From Polytrichum commune (Eukaryota > Streptophyta > Polytrichopsida > Polytrichales > Polytrichaceae), in NCBI GenBank assembly GCA_950295325.1, contig OX485804.1:9112001-9176000 (forward strand): a DNA stretch of 64,000 nucleotides, given 5' to 3'. A model generated the notes under the pieces. That model was not told the DNA's origin. It was given only the letters and a program-made list of their open reading frames with translations, and ran no database searches. Position 1 is the first letter of the stretch. Every line of letters starts with the position of its first letter. The position numbers were made by a program, and so were the translations under genes. Positions 6,201-59,340 of the stretch are shown here, piece by piece.

Positions 6201-9200
6201 TGTAGATTGACAGACACGGTCACAACCGAAATTGGGGTGCAATTGGATACTACGGCCCTGATCCGAAGGTTTTCAACCGCAGCAGAAATTCGACATCCAC
6301 CGAAAGCATCGTGATAAGACCTGCAGACGACCGTCTGAAAGAGAGAGTGGTTGAGGGAAGAGTGGCAGGGAGCAACCTAATCGTAGCTCTTAAAAATGTT
6401 GGTATGGAAATCCTGGACGACGTTAGTCACCTCAAGGGCCTTGTGCGAAGAAGGGTCGACATTGAAAAGAATGCATCATCATCGGCCAGCTTGAATTCCT
6501 TGAGAAATTCTGGAGACGAGGAGGAAGTTGGGGTAAGCTGTGATGTAGTGGTGGTGGGATCCGGTTGCGGAGGCGGGGTGGCAGCCTCCGCTATTGCCAA
6601 GGGCGGTTACAAAGTGGTGGTTCTTGAAAAGGGGAAATACTTCGGTACAAAGGACTTCTCCGGTTTCGAAGGTCCCTCGCAAATGGCGATGTACGAGAAG
6701 CTGGGATCTCTCGCCACCGAAGACGGAGGGGTTAACCTCGTCGCAGGTATCAGACCTGACGGTTCACTTATCACTTCCTATATGTTGTCTACACATCAGA
6801 GGAGAATGTCTTCGCTAGCTCGTTACGTACTTTATAAGTTGATTATACATCAGTGGAGAATGTGCTTGTAATCTAGGTAAATGCTCTATGAGTTGTCTAT
6901 ATATCAGAGGAGAATGTGATGGCAAGCTAGCTAAGTACAGGTGCTAGATGTTCACCAAAATAACTCGGGTCCTGTGCCCTTCTGGAAGGTCTTGTGTGGC
7001 AGTCGGGCCTTGTACCTCTCTGGCAGTGGGTCTTGTGATCCCTTCTCCTAAGGTTCTCACAATTCTCTCTCTATTTCTAACAGGTGCAACAGTGGGCGGG
7101 GGTAGTGTGATAAATTGGGGTGTCTGCTTCGAGACCCCCTCCCATGTGCTGCAAGAATGGACAGAATCCAGCGGTGCGGAGATTTTCACCTCAGACCGGT
7201 ACAGGCAGGCTATGGCGGAGGTGTGGGGCCGCATTGGAGCGCAACGCGTGGTTGCGCATGAGAATTTTCCCAATGCAGTGCTGCGGGCTGGATGCGAGAA
7301 GATGTGCAGCGAGGTGGGCACACTTGCAAGGAATTGCGACCCGGGTCACTCCTGCGGCTGGTGCTCCTATGGGTGCCCACGTGGCGAGAAGCGAACCTCC
7401 GCGGCCACCTGGCTGCAAGATGCTGCCGAAACAGGCAACGCCATCGTGCTCTCCGAGTGCGAGGCGCATTCTGTTCTGTACCGCGCAAACAGCACAGGTA
7501 TCGGTGCAATCCGTTTTTTTGTTTCATATGGCTTTTGAAGCTTTTCTTGTTTAAGATGTTCCATCGATAACCTCTTGATTTGCTAGAAAAGTTTGCTGAG
7601 AATCCCATATGAATGTAGTCGAATCTCTGTACATAAAATCAAATAGCGTTTTCTGAGTCAGAACCCATGTGGGCAAACAGCAAAGAGATATACATGCAAT
7701 CCTTTTTTTTGGAAATTGTGTGGCTTTTGAAGCTGTCTTGTTTGAGATTTTCCATCAATAACCCCTTGAAATGAAAGAAAATCTGCTGAGAATCCCATAT
7801 GAACGTAGTCGAATCTGTGTACATAATATCAAAGAACGTTTTCTTCGTCAAAACCCATGTGCACAAACAGCAAAGGTATACATGCAATCCGTTTTATTTT
7901 TGGAAATGTGGCTTTTGAAGCTTTCTTGTTTGAGATGTTCCATCGATGACCCCTTGAATTGTTAGAGAATTTGCTGAGGATCCCTTATAAATGTAGTCGA
8001 ATCTCTGTAAGTGAGAAGTCAACCCATGTCAAAACTTCTCCGAGTTCAACGCTCAATCTGTTCTGTACCGCGGCAAACATCAAAGGTTGGTACAACTGCA
8101 ATCAATCCTCGTGACTCTTCTTTGAGATCTCACCAGTGGTCTGGGCGGCTTTTGAAGACTTCTTGTTTGAGATAGTCCACTGATAGATAACCCCTTGAAT
8201 CGCCAGAAAGTTTGCTGAGAAATGCTTCACAGGTAGGCAAGGTTCCCATATCATTTGATCAAATCACTGTACATAAAATTGCTGCATGGGTAGTTGTTCT
8301 CCGATTGCTGATGAATTCTGATCACTTCGATCGATTGAGCTATGTTGTTCCAAACAGCAAAGGTTCTTACAATTGTAATCAGTTCATGTAACTTGTCTTT
8401 GAGATTCCCCAATGTGGGCGGCTTTTGAAGGTTTCTTTTTTTAGATGTTCCACTGGCAACCCCTTGAATTAATTGCCAGAGGATTTGCTGAGAAGTCTAC
8501 ACAGAGAGGCAAGAATCTCACATAAATGGAATCGAATCTCTCTGTACATGAAATTTCAGCATGGGTAGATGTAATCCGGCTGCTGCTTCTGAGATTTTGC
8601 TCACTTGGGTCAAATTGGGCCATTTTGTATCGATTCTCTCACCGAAAGACGGCATTGAAGGTGTGGCATTGATTGTCGATCATGGTGGCAGGGAAGAAAC
8701 AGAATGAAGCACGGGGAGTGGTGGCGAAGATTGCAAACAGTAACAGAAAGGTTTTCATTCAAGCGCGGGTGGTCGTGGTGGCAGCAGGATCCCTCTTCAC
8801 CCCTCCGCTGCTTCTCAACAGCGGTCTGCTCAACCCCAACATCGGAAGAGGCTTACACTTGCATCCGGTGACATTCATGTGGGGTTACTTCCCTCAAGGG
8901 TGCGGACCCAGCAGTGGCAGTTGCTACGAGGGCGCAATTATGACAGCGTACTCTCCATTGTACAAAGCGGGCGCCAAGTTCCCGAGTGGTCTTTTGGAAA
9001 CTCCTTCCACCCACCCGGGGTGTTTTGCAACTTTCCAGCCATGGGTTTCTGGTAAGGATCACGTCCCTCGCCATGGAATCAATTTCTAGTGAAAAGAATT
9101 CTCTTATTGTGAATCAGGCTAGCTCTATGCATTGATGGTATTACCTCTTTTGTTGATGAGTTTTTCTCGACATTCATGATAAATCTCCTTCCACTCACCC

Positions 9201-10732
9201 GGGAAATTTGCAACTTTCCAGCCATGGGTCTCTGGTAAGGATCACATCCCTGAGTCGCCTTGGCATGATTTTTCTGGCGAAAATAATTCTCTCATGACGG
9301 GAGGGAATATTAGGCTAGATCTTATGAATTGATGGTATTAGCTCTTCGTTGATAAATCTCCCTGACATTCTTGATGAATATCCTTGCACCCACCCGGGGA
9401 GTTTTGTAACTTTCCAGCCATGGATCTCTGGTAAGGACATTGGTAGCCATGGAAGTTTGGCAACTAAGTTTTCAGCAAGGAAATTTTAGTGGAGAAATTT
9501 CTCTTCTGGCGGGAGGGAGTATTCTAGCTCTATGGATTGATGGTATGAGCCCTTCGTTGATAAATCTTGAGATTCTTGATGAAACTCCTTCCACCCACCC
9601 GGGGAGTTTTGCACCTTTCAGCCATTGATCTCTGGTGAGGACATTGTCAGCAATCCTCATCACGGAACTTTAACTTAGTTTTGCAACTAAGTTTCCAGAA
9701 ACGAATTTCTAGCCGAAAAGAATTCTCTAATGGCATCCGGGAGTGTTATGCTAGCTCTATACATTGATGGTATTACCTCTTTGTTGAAGACTTTTTTTCA
9801 AAATTCTTGATGAATTTCCTTCCAACCGCCCTGGGAGTTTTGCAACTTCCAAAGCTATGGATCTCTGGTATGGACATTGGTAGTATCGCTCACCATGGAC
9901 ATAGTTTTACAACCAAGTTTCTAGCAACGAATTTCTCTAACGGCATGCGGGAGTACTAGGCTACTACATAGCTCTATGGATTGATGGTACTACCTCGTTC
10001 TTGACATTCTGATGAAACTCCTTCCACCCACCTTGGGAGATTTGCAAACTATCCAGCCATGGATACAATCTCTGGTAAGGAGATTGTTAGCATCCCTCGC
10101 CACAATTTCTTTGCAACTAAGTTTCTATAATTGATGGTATCACCTCTTTGTCAATGAACATTTCTTGACATTCTTGGTGTGGGGAATGATCAGGGGCCGA
10201 TTTCAAGGAGAGGATGGCCCGCTTTTCTCGCACCGCAACACTGTGCGTCGTCACTCGAGACGAAGGGAGCGGTCAAGTGGGAGTGGAGATAGATGGCACA
10301 CCGGTGATAACATACAAATTAAGCTCCGCGGACGAGGAAACGGCAGTTTTAGGGTTACAGAAAGGTTTGCGAGTGCTAATTGCCGCGGGTGCCGAGGAAG
10401 TGGGCACACATCAGCAAGATGGGGAGCGGTTTGTGGTTGCGGGATCTTCCGAGTCCGACATTGAAGCTTACTTGAACAGAGTGCGGTCACGAGGGGTGAA
10501 GAATTTGGAAATCTCCATGGGATCTGGTCACCAGATGGGTAGCTGCAAAATGGGCACGGATCCGGACCGCTCCGTTGTGGATCCGACTGGCGAGTGTTGG
10601 GAAGTTGAGGGATTGTTCGTTGCGGATGCTAGCATCTTCCCCAGCGCAGTAGGTGTCAACCCTATGGTCACCATCCAATCCCTCGCACTTTGCACTGCCC
10701 ATTCCATTCTTCAGTACCTTGAAACTCACTGA
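3252..10732 (+). CDS. FAO: Long-chain fatty alcohol oxidase (GMC oxidoreductase), six exons
   Basis: Exons: 3252-3659, 5187-5456, 6206-6746, 7084-7497, 8692-9051, 10194-10732; all junctions are GT-AG with matching phases, giving about 843 residues. The family oxidises long-chain fatty alcohols to aldehydes with O2 (EC 1.1.3.20) on a membrane; plant members are about 740-760 residues, so the N-terminus is extended. Visible marks are HPLLKSW and FTKSQMQTLSSICDTF near the start, a hydrophobic helix RLFLWLLSTRIGTVML (about residues 150-170), the FAD-binding loop VVVGSGCGGGVAA (about 342), LEKGKYF, ATVGGGSVINWG, and C-terminal HQMGS (His about 777) and NPMVT (Asn about 820), the GMC catalytic pair. 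The start is the first ATG after an in-frame stop at 3147; an upstream exon is not excluded. No coding lesion was found. All five introns hold internal repeats (listed separately). Confidence 0.88.
3950..5170 (+). repeat. Tandem repeat array filling alcohol oxidase intron 1
   Basis: About five and a half degenerate copies of a 200-290 bp unit lie in this 1.5-kb intron. Each contains GAGTCAAGGATCAACCTGCC, TTGATGAATTTGCG, GAACTGATGAGGAGC, CCTCCCAGCGC.CATACAT, TTGACA and then a stretch ending in AAAGAGAGA. Recognisable unit starts are near 4020, 4255, 4490, 4725, 4915 and 5113. The last, partial copy runs directly into the exon 2 acceptor at 5186. Confidence 0.9.
5745..6240 (+). repeat. Duplicated segments in alcohol oxidase intron 2, reaching exon 3
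   Basis: Two overlapping duplications are visible. 5745-5822 and 5955-6020 share 'CTT.AAGCT.GAAT.GAA' and AAGAAT...TGTCTGCTGTT. 5820-5950 and 6118-6240 share TAATGCACTGTTGATGATGC, then GATTGAACGAATC..G..GATTGA and ACACN(5-8)AAA.CG.AAATT.GG. The second copy crosses the acceptor (6205) into exon 3, so 5890-5950 is a decayed copy of the exon 3 start. Confidence 0.75.
6781..6935 (+). repeat. Short repeats in alcohol oxidase intron 3
   Basis: Three near-identical pieces of about 25 bp, CATCAGAGGAGAATGT and variants, sit at about 6793, 6850 and 6903. Each is preceded by TTGTCTA or a similar string and followed by a GCTAGCT or CTAGGTA motif. The spacing is 53-58 bp. The rest of this 337-bp intron is unremarkable. 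Confidence 0.75.
7498..8600 (+). repeat. Tandem repeat array in alcohol oxidase intron 4, with exon 4 pieces
   Basis: Four to five copies of a 190-270 bp unit. Each carries GGCTTTTGAAGC.TTCTTGT, GATGTTCCATCGATAACCCC, TTTGCTGAGAATCCCATAT and GTAGTCGAATCTCTGTACAT. Copies begin near 7530, 7719, 7909, 8149 and 8417. At 8049-8087 the array also contains CAATCTGTTCTGTACCGCG followed by GCAAAC, a degenerate copy of the 3' end of exon 4 (7467-7497), so the unit once included the exon end and donor. Confidence 0.9.
9001..10090 (+). repeat. Tandem array of exon 5 end plus splice donor (intron 5)
   Basis: The last ~55 bases of exon 5 and the first ~140 of intron 5 form a unit of about 190-230 bp that recurs five more times. 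Copies start near 9185, 9381, 9585, 9817 and 10014. Each has CTTCCACCCACCCGGGGAG, TTTGCAACTTTCCAGCCATG and TCTCTGGTAAGGA (the donor context), then ATTGATGGTATTACCTCTTTG. Only the first donor, at 9052, is joined to open coding sequence. Confidence 0.92.
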
Positions 10733-35646: not shown

Positions 35647-38600
35647 TTACACCCACCGTCTTCGCTTTGTTGCAGAATTCTCTTTGGATCCGGGATCTCC
35701 TCCACCAAGGCAAGTCATGCCCCCTTTGAGATCCATTGAGGATGCATTACGGTTTTTAATAGGTGTGTTTGGTGCCACGGAGCCCAAGACCTTCACGCCC
35801 TCACTCCCTGGACTGGTCCGTGAATTCTTCTTACTGTCCATCCTCTTAGCATTGTTCGTGCTTTTATTGCTTGCGCGGGAATCTTTTGCTCTGGATGTTT
35901 CCATGGTTCTTGTTGAAGATGTGAAGGTCACACTAGCCCGCACTCGATTTAAGTTCGACGTCAAGTTCAGTGAGGACGTTGACACTCTACAAACGTCTGT
36001 AAAAGTTACACAAATGTGAACATTAGCAGAGGGCACTGAAATTAAACATCAAAAGTGAAAAACCACTCAACTGTGGACTCCTGCCCCTAACCTTCTAGAT
36101 TTCTCCAGTCTTCACCTAGCTGTGAGAGAGAAACAACTGATGTATCACGAAGGCTGAAAACACAGGTTCGTCCCACTGTCGTAAGTGTCCTTAAGCATGT
36201 GTAAAGGACATTCTCTTTCTACTCTAGGTTCAAAAATAAAACCAAGAATCAAGGTCCTTGATTACATACATGAATGTCAAGGATAGTCAGGTGGCAAGCT
36301 CACATTAGTCGACACCTCATTGTTACCCATTTTTCGGACCAAGCCTTCTCCCATCTACCAAGATTGAACTTAAAATTACACCAAAAGATTCTCAGAGAGT
36401 GTATACTCTCCAAGATGCTTATCTAGAACAATTAAGCATGCTATGGTCAACTAGATGTTGTATCTGATATGGTGACATAGATGCTTTCGTGTTACCTATA
36501 GGGGCTTTGGGCTGCTTGCTGAGCACGTGGTTGAATGCACTTGGTTTCATGGAGTTCTCGGGTACACGATGTCCACACTCTGATGAACTTTCCTTGTCTT
36601 TTAGAACAGCCTGACGTGACTGCTCAAGTTTTGAGAAGCCATTTCTGCTGGATGACAACAGCTGCAATGAGCTCCAGTTATCCCTCGTGCTCTTCAGCTT
36701 GAACTCTTCAAAAGACTTGGAACTCATATCCTTGAATTGTTGTTTTTTGCCAGCCTCATAACTGTTGTATTGGTTTTTGTTGGTCAAAGCCTCCTTCTTT
36801 GGACCTCCAAAACGTCGATGAACCGAGTGGACAGCTTCAGTTGAGTGCTCCGGCAATGATAACTTAAGTCCTGAGAATTCATCTTTCCTGGATGACACCT
36901 GCGATAAGTCTGTCCTGTTTAAAATACCCCTCATGCTATTCGGCTCAAAATCTGCAACCGAGTCATGATCCATAACCTTGGATTGCTGTGTATTCCTCAC
37001 AGAATAATTACTGTATTGATTCTTTTTGGTCAGGGGCTCCCTCTTCGGACATTCAAGATGTTGCACTGAAACAGCTTCAAGTGGTGATAACCTTGAAACA
37101 TCATGGCACGAATGCTCACATCCTGAAAAGTCATTCCTGGATCTCTTTGGTTTACACTCTTGACTGGACCTGTCATCATCCACAGCCTTGGATTGTTGGG
37201 TGTTACAATACTCGCTGTTTTGATAAATCTTGGTGGTGGACTCCTGTGGATAAACTGAAATATCTTCAAGAGAGTGCTTCAGTGCAGATAACTCAACTGA
37301 AACAGGCCGAGATGACTGCTCAAGTCCTGAAAAGCCCTGTCTACTCGCCGACTCCTGCAATGAGCTCAAGTTATTTCTGGTGCTCTTTGCTTTAAACTCC
37401 TGATTGGACCTACCATCATCCATAGCCTTGGATTGGTGTGTGTCACTTGAGGAATAGTTGCAGGATTGAGTGTTGTCCATCAAAGGCTCCTTGTGCGGAC
37501 CTTCCAAAAATTGATAGTGTGGATCAACTGAAACAGCTTGGAGTGACTGTTTCAGTGCTGAAAACTCAATCTCACTACCTTCGCCTACATTCTCAATTCC
37601 AGAGGAGCCATCTCTGCTGGGTGACGTTGCCTGCATTGAGCTCAAGGCATTCCTTGCGCTCTTTGGGTTCCACTGGTCATTGTACTTGTCATCATCATCC
37701 ATAGCCTTGGCTAGTTGTGTGTTACTAATAGAATGATTGCTATGTTCGTTCTTGTTGACATAATCCTCCTTTGGACCTTCAGGACACTGATGGAGTGGAT
37801 CAACTGAAACAGCTTGGAGCTTCAGTGCTGAAAACTCAATCTCACCACCTTCTTCGCCTGACTGCTGAATTCCTGAGGAGCCATCTCTGCTGGGTGATGT
37901 TGCCTGCATTGAGCGCAAGGCAATCCTTGTGCTCTTAGGATTCCACTGGTCATCGTGCTTCTTATCATCCATCGCCTTGGCTTGTTGTGTGTTAATAAAG
38001 GAATGATGTCTACCTTCGTTCTTGTTGACATAATCCTCCTTTTCTGGACCTTCGAGACATTGATGGAGTGGATCGACGGACACAACTTCAAGTAACTGCT
38101 TCAGTGCTGAAAATTCAATCTCACCACCTTCTTCGCCTGACTCCTCAATTCCTGAGAAGCCATCTTTGCTGGGTGATGATGCCCGGATTGAGCGCAAGGC
38201 AGTCCTTATGCTCTCTGGATTCCACTGGTCATTGTGCTTGTCATCATCCATAGCCTTGACCTGTTGTGTGTTACTAACAGCATGATTGCTATACTCGTTC
38301 ATGTTGGCATCACGCTCTTCCTTTGGACCTTCAAGACACTGGTGGAATGAATCAACTGAAACATCTTCGAGTGACTGCTTCCGTGCTGAGTATTCAATCA
38401 CAACATCTTCACCATCTTCAAGTCCCGAGGAGCCATCTCTGCTGGGTGAGCTCAAGGTATTCCTTGTGCTCTTTGTTTTGCACTGATCATTGCGCTTATC
38501 ATCATTATCATCCATAGCCTTGGCTTGTTGTGTGTTGACAACAGAATGACAGCTACATTCGTTCTTGTCAGCATAAAGCTCCTTCTTTGGACCTTTTTGA

Positions 38601-41600: not shown

Positions 41601-44600
41601 CCTGGTAGCTTTCGAATTCGGAGGGAGACAGGCCGAGATCTGACAATGCCTTCGGGGTAATGTCTTCCCAACATCTGGCCAAAGCTAAGTGCATAGCTTC
41701 CACTGGATCCGTCCCCTCCTCCAGACCTGCGAGCATTGCCGCTCTGAATCTGGAAACCTCCGTATCCAGGGCTGCCACTAATTCATTCTGCAGATTAGGG
41801 GTCAGTGCAGGTGTCAATCGGAAGCTCAATGCTATCTTTGAAATTACATCCATTTCTTGGAATGACATTCTTTTATGTGAACTGGCAGACGCTTACTTTG
41901 CAAGGAAACACACAGCAAGATGCAAGCTGAAATTAGTGCAGAGGATTTCATCCGAAATTACATCTACTTTGTGCAATGATGTTCTTTGTGTGTACTAGCA
42001 GACACTTACTTTGCAAGCTGAAAGTAGTACAAGAACAGGATTTGATTTGTGCAGGTGTCTAATCGGAAGCTCAATGGCTTCTTCGAAATTACATCTATTT
42101 TGTGGAAGGCAAGTCTTGGAGTTAACTAGGAGACATTTAATTTGCATTCTAAGAGTAGTGCAAAGCAGAAGATTTGATTTGTGTCGAAACTTAGCCAGAC
42201 CAGAGTAAATGCAATAACGCTTCGGATTTTTTAGGATCTTGGTCCATGGTTTCCATAAGACGGGACCTACCAAAAACAGCTGATGTACCTTTAAATCAAG
42301 GATGACACTGGCGCAGAGCACTCGTGATGCTGTCAAATCCTGGTAAAGCTTAGCTACATCCTCTTCTACCTTTGGTGATAGGCATCGGTCTTTTGTATCA
42401 CATGTGGCAGTCATCTGCAGCCCACGTCCAGACAGTTGTGCTTAGTACAACATCAAACGAATCAGCTGGAGACCTTCACAATCGACCAAACGAGGAGATT
42501 GGAAACACCATGTTGGATTTGGGTACCTGGGCAGGAGAGACAAAGGGGAATTCTGCAAATGGTAGTAACTGGGGCACAGGGGTACTGGTAATCGAGTCCC
42601 GATTTTTAAAGGACGACCTTAATGCCATCCACTCAAGCGATCCTCGAACCGCGGGTGTGCATGCTGCAAACAGGGGAGCTCCTCTCTCCGGTGTGCACAT
42701 GTCGAAGTATTGGTCCTCAGCTTCCAAGACCATCGGGTTCACATACCATTTGGCCGCCTCTTCAGCTTCATTAGATTCCTGTTCATGCTGCAGAGATGAC
42801 CCAATCCCACCAACATCGCCTCTAGATGGCGTCTCCACGAGCACCACGCCCTTGTTGATCACAGAGGCATCTAGCAACTCCTCAGAATTGAGATTCTGTG
42901 CTTCCGTAATCACTGTAAAATCCAACAATTTACTGTCCATGTCATCCATCTCGGAGCATGACCGCACGCTGCCAACGGGGCTAAAGAATCTTGATTCTAT
43001 CGTCGCTGCTAATGGTGTCAATTTGGTTTGCTCTTCCCTCAATGTGAGGACACTGGGGCTTGTGATGGATTGCTTACAGGTAAGACTCAGTTGCTGTCTC
43101 ATGGACAGTATCTCATTGTCCTGTACAACATAGGACCACAACATTCTGTCAATCGCCTGCTGCATTTGCAACTATTGTAAATTGCTTGACACAAGTTCTG
43201 GCACATGAACAGGGTGAAGCACTCAACTACACATTAAGCTCATAGCAAATGAACACGAACAAAATCTGGAGGTTTTTGCAACTATTTGAGGGATTTTTGG
43301 TTTCCTCAATACAGGTCCAATCACAGAAAACGTCGCTGCAAACCCATCACAAAGGCATCAGATAAACAAACGCTCATATGTCGTTCTAAATGTTTTGCAA
43401 ATACCCATTGTAACGCCAATTACCGTCCAACGGTGTTTGCAAGTTTTTGCAGTGGAATCTGCAGATATATTTTACACACATTTATGCGACAGTTTCTCAC
43501 CGACCTTCCAATGTCCAAGACATGATTTTATGGTAGATGATGGGTGAAAGGGATTCGTATGCACCTTCTCAGGAACGATCTTCAGCAGTCTCTCAGTTTC
43601 TTTGGTGTTCCTAAACTCGGCGGCGACCATGGGGCTCGTAGATCTTGATACTGTCGTCGCTACTAATGGTGTCAATTTGGTTTGGTCTTTCTTCAATGCG
43701 AGGCAACTGGGGCTTGTGGCGAATTGTGTGCAGGTAAGACTCAATTGCTGTCTCATGGACAGTATCTCATTGTCCTGTACAACATAGCACCAGGAATTCT
43801 GTCAATCGCCACTGCATTCACTATTGACACATTTGCAAATACTTGTTTTACAGTAGTGACACAAATTCTGGCACAAACACGGTACATTATTCAATGTGGA
43901 CTCACTATTCTCTTTCTAATTGAAGAATTTGGACAGGTGGCAGCGACACATAATGTATGGGAGATGGTGGACCGGAGAGAGGGATAGACATGGTTTAAGT
44001 CAGGTAGATGGTGAGGGGACGGGATTGATGTGGAGTACCTTCTCCTGGACTCTCTTTAACAGTCTGTCTATTTCTTTGCTATTCTTATGCTTGGTGGCAG
44101 CTGCAACCGCTGCCGCAACAGCGACCACAAGCACTCTCTGCATGGGTGCAAAACCCTCCCACACTAGCGCCTCCTGTTGCCCCAGGCCACCCCCAATGTT
44201 CTTCGTACTAGTAGCCAGCTCCCCATTGATGAGGCGTCCATCCAAAGATATGTAGGCAAATTTTCCCGTGGTGTCATCCGCCATCAGCTTCTCAGGTACT
44301 GTAATGACCCGCCGATCGTCTCGGAAGGACAAGATCGTCGAAGAGCAAATTGCCGGCTTCCTAAACATTCTCTCCGAATTCTTCACCTCACTTTTGCGGT
44401 CCAAGGAAGCTCGCCGGGCTACTCTCACATCCGCCACTTTCCTGTATGGAGAATGTCTCTTTTTGTTCCCCAGCTGGCTGCCCTTCTGCAACAATGCCCC
44501 CGTTCTAAAAGGGCTCCCTACATTACGATTCCATCTGCTTGCTCCATTCTCAATCTTCTCTGTAGCTGTGCAGTTTACGAGAGGAGCATGATCCTTGCCG

Positions 44601-44857
44601 AAGGTTACGTCGGATGAATCTTCTGGACTGACCCAAATTCTTTGGTTGGGATGCTTCTTTGGACTTTGCAGCTGATCGGCGGGGATGAGAGTCGCCAGTC
44701 CTGAAAGTAAGGACTCTTGAATTAAACCTGCCTTCTTCTGGCCTACCATTTGCCGGCAATTTACCATGCAATGCATCATCTTGATCACTAGAGGAAGTCT
44801 ACCCACCCAGTACCCAAGCCTCCAGTATTTTTCATCGAGGTTGATGAAACCTGTCAT
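35647..44857 (-). CDS. Large coiled-coil protein of unknown function, eleven exons
   Basis: Minus-strand exons: 44857-44039, 43120-42527, 42414-42289, 41787-41584, 41201-40809, 40602-40483, 40112-40026, 39714-39595, 39408-39295, 39004-36496, 35996-35647. Introns 1-9 are phase 0 and the last is phase 1; all are GT-AG. The total is about 1,811 residues. Exon 1 ends with a hydrophobic stretch VLVVAVAAAVAAAT (about 242-255) followed by KEIDRLLKRVQEK. Exons 6-9 are short, charged and heptad-like (EIQMKSLEQTAAEADAKRLE, ELQLREVEIAELESS), as in coiled coils. Exon 10 is a repeat region and exon 11 ends in a basic tail (KENSATKRRRWV). The layout suggests a plant-specific membrane- or cytoskeleton-associated coiled-coil protein, but I recognise no named family. 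The start ATG is uncertain; earlier exons are possible. Confidence 0.7.
36560..38760 (-). repeat. Coding tandem repeats in exon 10
   Basis: Eight copies and a decayed ninth of a 75-90 residue unit. The core order is 'SALKQSLEAVSVDPLHQCLE', GPKKE, 'NKNEYSNHSVSNTQQAKAMDD', 'DQWNPKSTRNALSS' and SPSRDGSSG (consensus pieces, not one exact copy). The best preserved copies are around 37600-38250; those nearer the 3' end of the gene (36560-37300) are most diverged. All stay in frame with no stop, so the repeat is under coding constraint or is young. No fold is recognisable; the unit is polar and probably disordered. Confidence 0.88.
41805..42195 (-). repeat. Duplicated segments in intron 3 of the coiled-coil gene
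   Basis: As written on the plus strand, 41805-41900 and 42051-42150 share GCAGGTGTC.AATCGGAAGC, TCAATG and CGAAATTACATCTATTT. A partial third copy at 41949-42010 has GAAATTACATCTACTTTGTG and CTAGCAGACACTTACTTTGC. The whole lies between exons 3 and 4. Confidence 0.8.
43565..43774 (-). other. In-frame chimeric cassette exon from a tandem duplication
   Basis: This 210-bp segment lies in intron 1 of the coiled-coil gene. On the minus strand it has the acceptor TGTTGTACAG at its start, 70 open codons and GAGAAG followed by GTGCAT at its end. Its first ~50 codons copy the start of exon 2 (DNEILSMRQQLSLTC, TKLTPL.AT..SR..SP). Its last ~19 copy the end of exon 1 (KETERLLKIVPEK against KEIDRLLKRVQEK). 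Entry and exit are both phase 0, so including it would add 70 residues without disturbing the frame. Both flanking introns (43775-44038 and 43121-43564) are alike at their ends. Whether it is spliced in is unknown. Confidence 0.75.
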
Positions 44858-45959
44858 AATTGGACAAGCATGGTAGACGTGTCCTGTTAGGATCTTGACA
44901 GAATCAAAAAAAAGCTAGGTAGCATGGGCTGCTGCACCTTACTAGTCATCACAAGCTGATAAAAATGTGCAAAGAGAATGTTCAAACACGACGACTGAGT
45001 TCTGCTTCGAATTCAACAAATCAACGTTGGCTGTGGTCATCTGAGACATGATGACCAGAATTGCCCCGCAAACTCAAATGGCACCCAAGAAACTCACCGA
45101 CGTGAAGAGCTTGAGCCTGCTGCGACCGATGCATATGTAGGTGAAAAGAAAGAAATGATAAACGAAAACAAAACAAAAGCCTGTATTACCTCGGAGAACC
45201 TCGTACTTGGAGGAGACCTTCCTCCAGCTCTGGATCTTCCCCTGCACAGACAGGCAGACAGACAGAACCCGGTGTCAATCTCTCCGTTATCAATGGAAAT
45301 CTTTCCTTCCACGCCACTCTTTTACTACATTGGAGGATCACCCAAGTGCTCAAGAAAGAATGTCACTCGACAAGACCTCATTCGTTGCTCAAAGAAATTG
45401 AAAAATATTTCTTAAATGCAGGGCCTCACCACTTTGTCTGACAGTTATTCAATGGAATGAAGTAGAATGAGTCACTACGGACTTGAGTCGCAGCGTCTCG
45501 ACACCCCCGGTCTCACATCACGCATCCCTGATCAAACAATGTCACACAATCAGACTCCAAGAATGATTCATACATAATCGCCCATCCACTATACATCCTC
45601 ATTACTGCACCGAAATTTATAGCCCCACTCCCGGCTGTGACCCCTTCAAAAAAGCAGAAAACCAAACAGGACACCTCGAAGCTGACGAGAGATACATGAC
45701 AAATAGCAGCTTACGGCATATGGAAGACCTCACCATGGAGAGTCCCTCCATCTGCATTCTTGCAGTTCCACTCAGAAAAGAAATGTTCTCGTATCCCACT
45801 ACTCAGTTCCCTCAGTGCCCCTTCATTACAAAAAGAACAAAATAGAAAACCACACAAACACAGTTTCTAGCACATAAAACTCTCACCTCAGACTCTACAT
45901 CTACATTTTCACAACCAGATTCCCCCTCAAAAGAAAATGCCACACTTGAGCAACAATCA
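44858..45959 (-). promoter_or_regulatory. Probable 5' leader region of the coiled-coil gene
   Basis: Upstream of the chosen ATG. On the minus strand, the sequence ending at CCGAG before GTAATAC (about 45188) looks like an exon end with a fair splice donor, and TTATGACAG at 44850 could be an acceptor just after the proposed ATG. A spliced 5' UTR or an extra N-terminal exon is therefore plausible. No clear TATA box is visible. Confidence 0.35.
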
Positions 45960-54365: not shown

Positions 54366-55916
54366 TCATTTGTCCAAGGTTGTTTCCATTGACAGCCAAT
54401 CGTCTCTTTGGTAGTAGTATGAAGTTGAGTGGGCAAATTCATGTGATTGTGAGGCGTTGAGGTGTTCTTTAGACGTGCCTTCTTTAGCAAGTGTGTCAGC
54501 TTCCTCGTTCCCCATGATGTTTGCATGTGCTCTTACTTTATATAGTGTTGTGGGTTGGGTTCTTTGTATAAGGAAGTTAATTATTTCTTCTAAAATGGTT
54601 TTATCTGGGTGGTTGTTATGTAGTGTGGGGTGTTTTATTTGATTTCGTATCACATATAGGCCATTGAGGCAGTCGGTGAAGATATGTGCGGGTTCATTTG
54701 GGAAGTCTATATTTATTATTGTAAGGGCGTGGTGTATGGCCATTAATTCTGCTCTGAAAATGTTTTGTAGGCTTGGTAGTCGTATTGCAAGTTTGATATT
54801 CTTTTCTTGGTGATATATGTCGTACCCAGCTTCTTCCCGTAGCCAAGTATCTCTCATTTGTTTTGGAGGGTTGAAGGATCCATCCGTGCAGAAGCAGTAT
54901 TGGGGAAAGAACTTGAGGGGTGTTTTGTTCTCGTATTTTGGGATTGGTGGGATTGTGTTATGATTGTGTGTGTTTGGACTTGAGTAAGTGAGGGCATTCC
55001 ATGTTTTTCTTTTGTTAACTTCTATATTTTGCGGGCTAGGAGGAGCAATTTGTGTGATTGTACGGTTCATGTTTAGGTTATCACATATATTTTTGATTGT
55101 GTCCATTTGTTCTATGGTACCGATGTTGTTATTTTGGTGGTGTATGCAAAGGATTCTAATAGCAAGTGGTTCTATACGTGGCTCGTTGAGTTCTGGAGGT
55201 TTAGTTGGTTCCTCGTATTTAGTGGTATCTGTCGGTATATGGGTGATTACATGTGTGTATGGGAAGGGGCCTATATATGGGGTGAGATTTTGATACCATA
55301 TTGTATCTGTGATGGTGAGTATTGTGATGGAGTTTGGGTCGTGTTTAGCTACTAACCTAGCCCAATGAATGGTTGTTTGGACTTTGTTTTCATTGTGGGG
55401 GTGAGGATAACCTATTCCTTGCCATTTGTGTGAAAACGCAGTACCAAGAAATCCGAAAATTTGATCTTTGGGAAATGGCGAACATAATTTTGTTAGTTGA
55501 GTGAAGCATGTAATTGGTGAGGAGAAGTAGGAATGGGTAATATTAAAGGATGTTGTGATGTAGTCTAATAGTACTTTGGGTAGGGCGTGGTGTGAGTTTT
55601 TGAGTGAGTCATTTTTTGGGATTCTATGTTCATATCTTTGATATAGCCAAGTTATTTCTATTTTGAATGTTTGGGTGGGGGGTATTAGGTCATGTGGTTG
55701 GTGTAGCATTTGGTTGTATTGGGTCCAAAGCCATGCAAGTCTATTATAAGGAATGGTTATAAGATGTTTGCTTGTTTCGTCATATATGTGGGCGATGTCA
55801 TCTTGTACTTGAATTTTGTTTGTGTTAGTATTGATATCTTTTTCAGGGTTGCATTCGTGTGTTGAAATTTTTATGAGGGGGATGTTTAGGGGCAAGGATA
55901 TGTGCCTTGGGTCTTT
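54366..55916 (-). pseudogene. LINE RNase H segment
   Basis: An open stretch of about 509 codons. It has the RNase H residues in order: FCTDGSF (Asp), NIFRAELMAIHHAL (Glu), HIFTDCLNGL (Asp), RAHANIMGNEEADTLAKEG (His and Asp). The catalytic set is intact. The N-terminal part (NPEKDINTNTNKIQVQDDIA and so on) is the linker between reverse transcriptase and RNase H, and continues across the inserted transposon to 57430-57617. Confidence 0.8.
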
Positions 55917-55924
55917 GTTTTGGG

Positions 55925-57422
55925 CACGGGGAGGTCACTTAGTGCATTTTAAAAACGACGTGCGGCATAATATAGGGAGGATTAAAATCATTTGACATAA
56001 AAATTATAAAAGAATTCCAAATAATGAAGGGTCCATTAAAAGTACATAAGCCCATTACAAGTAAAATAGATAGGTATAAAATATGGGCCATTCCTTTTTA
56101 GTAAAAATAATATAGGGGCTGAAAATAAGGATCTTAGGATGTATGTTTAGTAGAATCAATTTCGTATGCATGCCTCACGAGGGATGGATGAAAAATTATT
56201 CATCATTCACCCAAAAATGGATGAAATTGGAAGCCTCAGTACAGAGAACCGGAAATTTTTTGCCAACCGTAGAAGTTGATGGGCATTCCATTTACAAATC
56301 AACGTTTGTCTCGCAACTCAATGGTAATGTTTCTCTATCCAAAGATAGATTAGCAAGAATTAAACATAGTATTCATTTCAACAACCATGATAATTGTCTC
56401 CAAGCAAGATCTTCATGTGGATCAAGTTTGTTATCTATAGGATCTGATTGTGGGGTGCATTTTGTCCAACGGAGCACAACAATGCTATTGTCAACTGTAA
56501 AATCCGTTGCCAAATAAAAAAGGGGACGTTCAATGATTGATGTTAAAGCTGGAAATGCTACTAACATATTGAACGGAGTAGATTCCAGTTCATGGTGGGT
56601 GGGTAGGGTGCAGGCTATGCGGCGGCGCAATGGAAAACAATTTGGAGTACTTAGGCAAGCGGTTGACCTCCTTGCTCGAACGGAGGAATCAGGGAGGAGA
56701 AATCCTAATAATCCCCACATCGAAGTAATGTTGCAATATTATAGAAAATATCCAGGCCGTAACAAATTTAAGTATGATCACACGGATAGCAAATGGATTG
56801 ATGTAGATTGCATTATATCTACGGTAAACATGAGCTACAATTCTACAAATGAGGTGTACACTCTTGATAGGAATGATTCAGAGCAACTGTCCAAGTTTGT
56901 GACAACGAACTATATAAGATTCATGACCAAGCTTAAAGTGTTTCACACTATATGGTTTTGGTCTTTACTATCATGTAAAGTGATTTTGAATAAAGGATTT
57001 TTATGGAGCGGGTGTTGTGTTTGTGAACACACACACAATCTTGTTGTGTTTGTAAACACACACTCAATCACATTGTGTTCCATCCTAAGTCTTCTTTTTG
57101 TATTTTCACTTTAAGTTTTTGTACTTGGTTTTTGCAATGGTACGTAATTTTTATATTTTTTTGTTGCCATGATTTTCCCATCACTTTTGCATTGCATACA
57201 TTCTTAAATTCAGTTTTTTTAATTAAAAGGAATATAGACTACAACAAATTTCAATGACATGGGCATTATAAGTAATGGTAGGGTACAAAAAAATAGGCCA
57301 TTTTAGAATATTATGTAATTATAGGGAGCTTTTAATTCGTGCCTTGGAGGTAAATAGCCCCTAAACAAATACCCCTCCGCCGCACGTGGTACACAAAAAT
57401 CCTACTGAGTGACCTCCCCGTG
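55925..57422. mobile_element. 1,498-bp DNA transposon inserted in the LINE, 8-bp target duplication
   Basis: The left end CACGGGGAGGTCACTTAGT is mirrored at the right end by ACTGAGTGACCTCCCCGTG. Inside, ACGTGCGGC and its reverse complement GCCGCACGT give a second match about 35 bp in. GTTTTGGG flanks both sides (55917-55924 and 57423-57430). An 8-bp duplication suggests hAT or P-type, but the terminus is not a standard hAT CAGG end. It contains one long frame (56143-57114) and near-exact internal repeats (ACACACACAATCTTGTTGTG and ACACACTCAATCACATTGTG around 57032-57080). Confidence 0.85.
56143..57114 (+). pseudogene. Unknown protein carried by the 1.5-kb transposon, one stop
   Basis: A single frame of about 323 codons interrupted only by TAA at 56515-56517. 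The first part reads WMKLEASVQRTGNFLPTVEV, HSIYKSTFVSQLNGN; the second reads SSSWWVGRVQAMRRRNGKQF, GVLRQAVDLLARTEESGRRN, PHIEVMLQYYRKYPGRNKF, KYDHTDSKWIDVDCIIST. The composition is that of a real protein, unlike its AT-rich surroundings. I see no DDE, zinc finger or known transposase motif. It may be a captured host gene, an uncharacterised transposon protein, or a remnant. Confidence 0.6.
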
Positions 57423-57430
57423 GTTTTGGG

Positions 57431-59340
57431 TAGAAAAATCATTTTCTCGTATGATATTTTCATATAGTGTATGTTGTTTCTTGGTAAAGTATGCAAGTAT
57501 TATATTTGTATTATGTTGTATGACTCTTGGGATGTTATAGGGGAACAATTCTCTTTGTGGGAGTTTTTTGTTATAAGTTGTGCCATCGGGTAGTATCCAT
57601 TGGCATAGGTATGTCAACTATTTTTTTATAATTTTATGTTTGTCTTTGATTGGTATCGTATAATGGTCTATTATTGAGTGTATAGGATATTTTATTGGGT
57701 TGTTTATTATGTGTGTTGGTGTGGGCGGGTGTATTAGATGTGTTAGGGTTGGTGGTTGTGTGTGGGTTTCATTATTTAGAGGTTTTATATTATGTCTTGT
57801 TATAATGTATTATTTTTTTAAGTGTGTGTGATGGGTAATGATTTTGACATGGCTCTTGACAGTTTTCATTGCATCCTGGGTGGCAAAATAATTGTTTTGT
57901 TATTCTTAGTGCTTGTTTTTATCATGCGTGTTGGTTTTCTGTAGAAGTTTATATATTCAGTATAGGACATCAAGTGTGTGCCATTCCTTAAAGTGAGTTG
58001 TTTTATGTCATATATGTTTTCTAAGAGTAGTTTGTGTATGTGTTTTAGGTTTTGAATAGAGATTTTTTGGGGTGGTGGTGTTGTGGGTAGTTTATGCCAT
58101 TCTTTTTCAAGTGGTGTTGCTTCCAAAGGGAATTTTTTTATTTGACTTCTAAGATGGGCGCCACCTGCTGCTTTTATAAGATATATTGTTCTAGTGGTGG
58201 GTGATCGGTTACAATCGTGGTGTTTGATTCTAGGTATGTTTTTTGCACCTCCATGTTTAGCAAGTATATAGTGTGTAAGACCCTTGTAGATTATTCCAAG
58301 TTTGCCTTTATCATTTAGTGCATTTATGAGTTGTTCCCCAATACATCTAAGGTAGGCATTTTTTAGTGAAAATGCTTCTATCCCAAACAACTCTTGAGGT
58401 AGTCGAGTGACCATGTTTGGTGTGCAGTTGGGGAGTCCACATATTTTCTTTTGAATTGCTATAATTTTTTTTTAATCTAGTTTAATGATTCCGGACAGTG
58501 AGTATGAAACTACATAGAAGCTATATGTTATTCGTGCTCTAATTATTGTATCTACCATACTAATTTTTTGTTTGATTGTGGCTGGACAGTTTGCTAATTG
58601 ACTACATTGGTTGATTACCTTAGTGGTAGTGGTATGTATTTGTATTTTCCATTTGAGGGAGGGAACGAGTTGGATACCTAGGTATACGTATGGTTCGTTT
58701 TGGTGTAGTATTGGGATGATTTGGTTTCTATATGTAACATTGGCGGTTTGTAATTCTCTTTTGAATGTTATTTGGTTCATTTTGGATTTATTAGGGCACC
58801 CTATGACTGCACATTTTGATATTCTAAGGTCCATACCTACCCATTCACAATATTTATTTATTTTGTTTAGTTGTGATTGTATTGATGTGAGTTTGTTGGT
58901 GATGATGGCTAGATCGTTTGCGTATGCTACAGAGCTCACTGTGGATTTAGACGTGCCGAAGGTGTATCCATAGTTTCCTTTTTGAAGCCAGCTTAATAGT
59001 GGTTCTAGGAATATGATAGCTAATAAACGTGCATGGTCAATTGATCCAAATGCGTTTTTGAAGTCAATATAAAGGAGATAGATGTCTTGGTTGGTGAATT
59101 GGGCGTTTTCTAATGTTGCTATTAGTGTTTGTATTTGTCTTGAAGTGCACATTTTTGCTCTAAATCCTTCTTGGCTATCTTCTAGTATTTGGTATTTTTC
59201 TCCATATGATGAGAGTATTGATGTTAGAGTGCTAGTGAAAAATTTGTATAGAGTATTTGCAAATGCTATAGGTCTGTGGTTGGATAGTAAGGATGGATCG
59301 TCTTTTTTATAGAATAGTATTGTAAGGTTGGTTTTCTATG
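57431..59340 (-). pseudogene. LINE reverse transcriptase, internally deleted
   Basis: From about 59330 down the frame reads TILFYKKDDPSLLSNHRPIA, FANTLYKFF, EDSQEGFRAKMCTSRQIQTL and IYLLYIDFKNAFGSIDHARL (motif A). It then passes directly to IIFLEPLLSWLQKG. Normal enzymes have motif B (a QG.P.SP.LF-like block) between these points, so roughly 60 codons are missing. The YADD box reads AYANDLAI: the first catalytic Asp is Asn. The thumb region (58414-57866) includes IYLIKAAGGAHLRSQIKKFP. A gap with stops lies at about 57620-57865, before the segment 57617-57431 that leads into the insertion. This copy is inactive. Confidence 0.8.

Follow-up and report, generated by a model that had tools for sequence, protein, structure and literature searches.

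A predicted gene on the minus strand of a 64,000-nt stretch of the Polytrichum commune genome (contig OX485804.1, positions 9,112,001 to 9,176,000; the window) carries a putative chimeric exon that opens like the exon downstream of it and closes like the exon upstream of it, and a single genomic tandem duplication of the upstream exon's tail, the whole intron and the downstream exon's head is well supported as the origin of this layout. During all or part of its history, the chimeric exon has probably been included in at least some transcripts and tolerated as a 70-residue insert under low constraint, a reading that rests on DNA sequence and on which the evidence is mixed. All coordinates are positions in the window, and the locus is named C2 to set it apart from its paralogs. 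The features, in the direction in which the gene is read, are as follows.

44039..44098, minus strand: tail of the upstream exon ("exon 1"), from which the 3' end of the chimeric exon derives; codes ATKHKNSKEIDRLLKRVQEK and ends at a phase 0 donor, AAG/GTACTC (the slash marks the exon border)
43775..44038, minus strand: intron A, upstream copy of the duplicated intron, 264 nt
43565..43774, minus strand: putative chimeric exon of 210 nt (70 codons), stop-free and phase 0 at either end
43628..43774, minus strand: head of the chimeric exon, resembling exon 2 but for 23 of 147 nt (16%)
43565..43624, minus strand: tail of the chimeric exon, resembling exon 1 but for 17 of 60 nt (28%)
43121..43564, minus strand: intron B, downstream copy of the duplicated intron, 444 nt; similar to intron A over its first ~47 and its last ~106 nt
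43218..43516, no strand assigned: unclassified dispersed repeat that takes up the middle of intron B and is missing from intron A
42527..43120, minus strand: downstream exon ("exon 2"), 198 codons up to a GTACCC donor; the 5' part of the chimeric exon derives from its first ~147 nt

Layout of the chimeric exon and the duplicated unit

An earlier note on this DNA had described 43565-43774 as beginning like exon 2 and ending like exon 1, and local alignment bears this out. The head is identical to exon 2 at 117 of its first 133 nt (88%) and the 60-nt tail to the final stretch of exon 1 at 43 positions (72%), both gapless. Shuffling the last 262 nt of exon 1 5000 times never gave as good a match to the tail. 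The final ~14 nt of the head align poorly to exon 2, and the breakpoint lies near 43625-43641. The likeness of the flanking intron ends, also claimed in that note, was recovered when the two introns were aligned: the 5' parts share 41 aligned columns (8 mismatches, 1 gap) and the 3' parts 124 (17 mismatches, 6 gaps). No shuffle out of 2000 matched the first 70 nt of the introns as well, and the intron middles have no match between A and B. In intron B, the edge of the dispersed repeat adjoins the end of the 5' intron match. Searching the DNA against its own genome, with 20 candidates scored, returned 22 rows: 19 in this repeat (67-91% identity; a lower bound on its copies), one for the window itself and two for exons of paralogs.

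Since the order of the exon and intron matches is the one predicted from a duplication whose two breakpoints fall in exon 1 and in exon 2, as the earlier note had proposed, a single tandem duplication is the well-supported origin of the layout. About 470 nt (60 + 264 + 147, if intron A has kept its old length), running from near the end of exon 1 into exon 2, were duplicated in tandem, which left two copies of the intron and, between them, a fused exon that joins the exon 2 head to the exon 1 tail. RNA-mediated copying is ruled out, because the duplicated block includes the intron. That one of the copies is an artefact of assembly is extremely unlikely because the copies are diverged throughout, by 16% in the head and 28% in the tail, and the repeat in intron B is absent from intron A; for the same reasons, the description of the locus as exon birth caught in one step overstates how fresh the event is.

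The unequal divergence of head and tail could also reflect two events, an older duplication and a later gene conversion that re-matched the 3' end of the intron and the head of exon 2, a history that is compatible with the other readings considered here and that we judge unlikely. Differences number 21 of 144 nt in the head and 17 of 60 in the tail (p 0.029), and at synonymous sites 5 of 33 and 6 of 12, respectively (p 0.044), but both contrasts are weak once the number of tests is considered. The intron, moreover, has no significant difference in mismatches between its 5' and 3' parts (p 0.62, gaps excluded), and looser constraint on the tail could increase its divergence, though not at silent sites.

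The predicted splice signals are in place. The acceptors ahead of the chimeric exon and of exon 2 are both TGTTGTACAG/GACAA, and the chimeric exon ends at the donor AAG/GTGCAT. The earlier note was also right that the exon is stop-free and phase 0 on both sides: it holds 70 sense codons, and exon 1, the chimeric exon and exon 2 share a reading frame whether or not the middle exon is included, both forms being stop-free. Symmetrical phase, an open frame and splice sites together are what a cassette exon would be expected to have. With a parent intron of phase 0 and its splice signals copied in context, inclusion or skipping of the fused exon would keep the frame; the frame can be read directly, and the splicing is predicted. 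If included, the exon would make the stretch that spans the exon junction, ...RLLKxVxEK/DNEILSMRQQLSLTC..., appear two times in register; we infer this stretch to be a coiled coil.

Exon 1 may be preceded by another exon, for which a segment at about 45190-45241 with AG and GT borders is a candidate. A stop-to-stop frame of 259 codons on the plus strand (42354-43133) lies antisense to exon 2.

Paralogs C5 and C7

Two paralogs in the same genome (408 Mb) bear on the direction of the change. The 70 residues of the chimeric exon match only the chimeric exon and exon 2 (two matches). The exon 1 protein (238 residues as query) matches, besides itself, the paralogs C5 (70% identity) and C7 (48%), and, apart from itself and the chimeric exon, the exon 2 protein matches C5 (54%, residues 83-199). 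By our own reading of the introns, the conserved exon end of C5 (...VSDR) is followed by one 244-nt intron and then the exon 2 homologue (ENEL...), and that of C7 (...VHAQ) by one 115-nt intron and then its exon 2 homologue (EDAL...), the start of the latter having been set by eye, as tblastn matched only the later part of C7 exon 2. Neither of the two paralogs found has a chimeric exon. Because both have a single intron at this place, they indicate, to the extent that two paralogs can tell, that the extra exon is derived in the C2 gene.

The C5 intron holds a duplication of its own. A direct repeat at about 2131-2332 of the C5 locus sequence (L015, G000:C5:35880501-35886500) includes the acceptor region and approximately the first 17 nt of exon 2, and its units align over 93 columns with 13 mismatches and 1 gap, or 2 gaps under another alignment scoring. 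The units are ~111 nt apart, and the ~20 nt that separate the first unit's end from the second unit's start would leave space for a very small exon at most.

One duplication common to C2 and C5 is unlikely: C2 exon 2 differs from C5 exon 2 at 73 of 147 nt vs 23 of 147 for the chimeric head, and the units are spaced ~111 nt apart in C5 vs 654 nt in C2. The two duplications are taken as independent because the two C2 copies are far closer to each other than C2 is to C5; gene conversion could mask a common origin. The C5 duplication at the same boundary would be a useful contrast to C2. One might go further and suppose that duplication recurs in this family at a single intron-exon boundary and that its paralogs repeatedly sample extra exons there, the copy in C2 having yielded a frame-compatible spliced chimeric exon and the independent one in C5 having stayed intronic. 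We consider this quite improbable; were it true, C2 and C5 would form a natural paired test of what makes a duplicated splice unit an exon.

Evidence on the use of the exon

One pointer to use is the absence of insertions and deletions (indels). Over 204 aligned nt (144 in the head and 60 in the tail), the exonic copies differ by 38 substitutions and no indels; gaps at both outer ends (the breakpoints) in a global alignment of whole units are excluded from this count. Indels are fewer in these exonic copies than in the paired introns (7 gaps, 25 mismatches; Fisher p 0.003) and than in the intron B repeat aligned with four genome copies (28 gaps, 175 mismatches; Fisher p 0.011), in a comparison that mixes alignments of differing scoring and draws on 4 of 19 repeat places. 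If 19 of the 38 substitutions are the chimeric exon's own, the probability of seeing no indel is 0.048 by the repeat yardstick and 0.005 by the intron yardstick; if 25 are, it is 0.018 and 0.001, respectively. The test presumes an equal raw indel rate in exons and introns, and its full count includes substitutions on the branches of the parent exons. With the C5 repeat as yardstick and 2 gaps counted there, the corresponding range is 0.003-0.054. The absence of indels in the chimeric exon points to frame-keeping on two of the three yardsticks, and the evidence on use as a whole is mixed.

Several observations weigh against use. On the ratio found in the C5 intron repeat with a single gap (1 gap to 13 mismatches), the probability of no indel rises to 0.05-0.23, and the ungapped extents compared were picked by alignment, which favours a zero-indel outcome. 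The motif KHKNSKEI, present in the exon 1 tail and also in the C5 paralog, is lost from the chimeric tail. In the head, 18 of 23 changes are nonsynonymous, which equals the neutral share (p 1.0), and the ratio of nonsynonymous to synonymous rates (dN/dS) is 1.05; this nonsynonymous share exceeds the expectation at a dN/dS of 0.29 (p 0.005), a yardstick taken from exon 2 vs C5, where silent sites are near-saturated (dS 2.2). Pooled over head and tail, dN/dS is 0.70 and not significantly below neutral (p 0.33-0.56), and the changes fall evenly across the three codon positions (10, 16 and 12; p 0.48). An open frame after 15-39 neutral changes has a probability of 0.25-0.53.

The tail leans toward constraint, with 11 of 17 changes nonsynonymous and a dN/dS of 0.35 (two-sided p 0.14). 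Amino-acid constraint was not detectable in the chimeric exon by dN/dS in the head, in the tail or in the two pooled, none of which was significantly under neutral. The absence of stops was set aside as evidence of coding: it is uninformative, because it is expected by chance in a quarter to a half of cases. With C5 as outgroup, the nine residue changes in the tail divide into five on the chimeric side, one on the exon 1 side and three that the outgroup leaves unassigned, and the fourteen in the head into three on the chimeric side, two on the exon 2 side and nine unassigned.

The earlier note had left open that the exon is a silent by-product on its way to decay, a duplicated block that is skipped or rarely used, decays neutrally in an enlarged intron and owes its open frame to luck. 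This is plausible but rather doubtful. A head dN/dS of about 1, the want of any dN/dS significantly under neutral and the fair chance of a stop-free frame all agree with it, as does the C5 intron, which contains a duplicated acceptor and the first ~17 nt of exon 2. Neutral decay accounts poorly, on the other hand, for 0 indels over the aligned exonic sequence vs 7 gaps in the paired introns, and for a chimeric acceptor and GT donor that remain intact. The decay reading agrees with the undetectable amino-acid constraint and disagrees with the missing indels.

Splicing of the chimeric exon into some transcripts remains the reading that we favour, and it contains as a sub-case a regulated cassette exon, in which alternative splicing would toggle the 70-residue insert; its likelihood overlaps with that of the broader reading, and taken by itself we think it rather unlikely. 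Phase 0 on both sides with both isoforms open would suit such an exon, as would an identical acceptor sequence occurring twice downstream of one donor. The donor of the chimeric exon lacks a G at +5, as do those of exons 1 and 2 and of the exon 1 homologues in C5 and C7. Donor strength was dropped as a discriminator, being uninformative because all of the compared donors lack this G. Beside cassette and silent by-product, constitutive inclusion as a 70-residue internal repeat is a third possible fate.

If the chimeric exon is used, C2 would be a clean example of one DNA duplication adding an exon, an intron and 70 in-frame residues together, a simultaneous gain owed to a parent intron that is in phase 0 and carries its own splice signals. 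The general picture of gene growth is unchanged by this case.

Gene context and comparison with known duplications

No Pfam family matched any of five frames of the gene region at E 0.1, and none matched an 881-codon stop-to-stop frame downstream at E 0.001. The upstream residues FAPMQRVLVVAVAAAVAAA are hydrophobic, with a mean of 1.8 on the Kyte-Doolittle scale. The 881-codon frame bears a separate tandem array, which is probably a second internal duplication of the same gene.

37497..38449, minus strand: tandem array with a period of 279 nt (93 codons), 3.5 copies, 81% matches

Elsewhere in the window, an open frame at 24001-24561 matches the Pfam families Plant_tran and DDE_Tnp_4 (plant transposase). 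Frames on the minus strand at 54366-59335 match RNase H (54366-55934) and reverse transcriptase (58472-59335) and likely belong to a retroelement; the RNase H frame also matches PCIF1_WW barely over the cut-off (33.6 vs 31.1 bits). On the plus strand, frames at 6206-10732 match the start of an FAD-binding family, GMC_oxred_N and GMC_oxred_C, and constitute a GMC oxidoreductase gene.

A search of the open-licence literature by kind of event, not by gene name, found no paper on a chimeric exon arising from intragenic duplication; the papers listed for chimeric exons together with tandem duplication concern cancer fusions. Close relatives of the event itself are known. According to PMC4974935, an entire intron of Arabidopsis TOUCH3 was copied together with flanking exonic sequence in two tandem internal duplications (citing Knowles & McLysaght 2006), and Gao & Lynch (2009, as cited there) likewise saw segmental duplications that contained whole introns. 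C2 likewise has two tandem copies of an exon end, an intron and the start of the next exon. It resembles TOUCH3 in being a tandem internal duplication that took in a complete existing intron and the exonic sequence flanking it, and the internal gene duplications of Gao & Lynch (2009) in being an intragenic segment that contains an entire intron; it differs from TOUCH3 in the gene concerned and in the number of duplications (one in C2, two in TOUCH3), and the splicing of its product is predicted from sequence.

Two other known layouts share some features with these duplications. In a tandem duplication across an intron-exon boundary the parental acceptor is reused; the C5 intron duplication resembles this arrangement, whereas in C2 the donor was copied along with exon 1. 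The intron-gain model in PMC4974935 shares with C2 a tandem duplication that increases intron number, but there the new intron comes out of exonic sequence and the peptide is unchanged, whereas in C2 an old intron was copied and 70 codons were added. On these accounts of the earlier work, the C2 event is of the same kind as the whole-intron internal duplication of TOUCH3, by a route already described for other genes.
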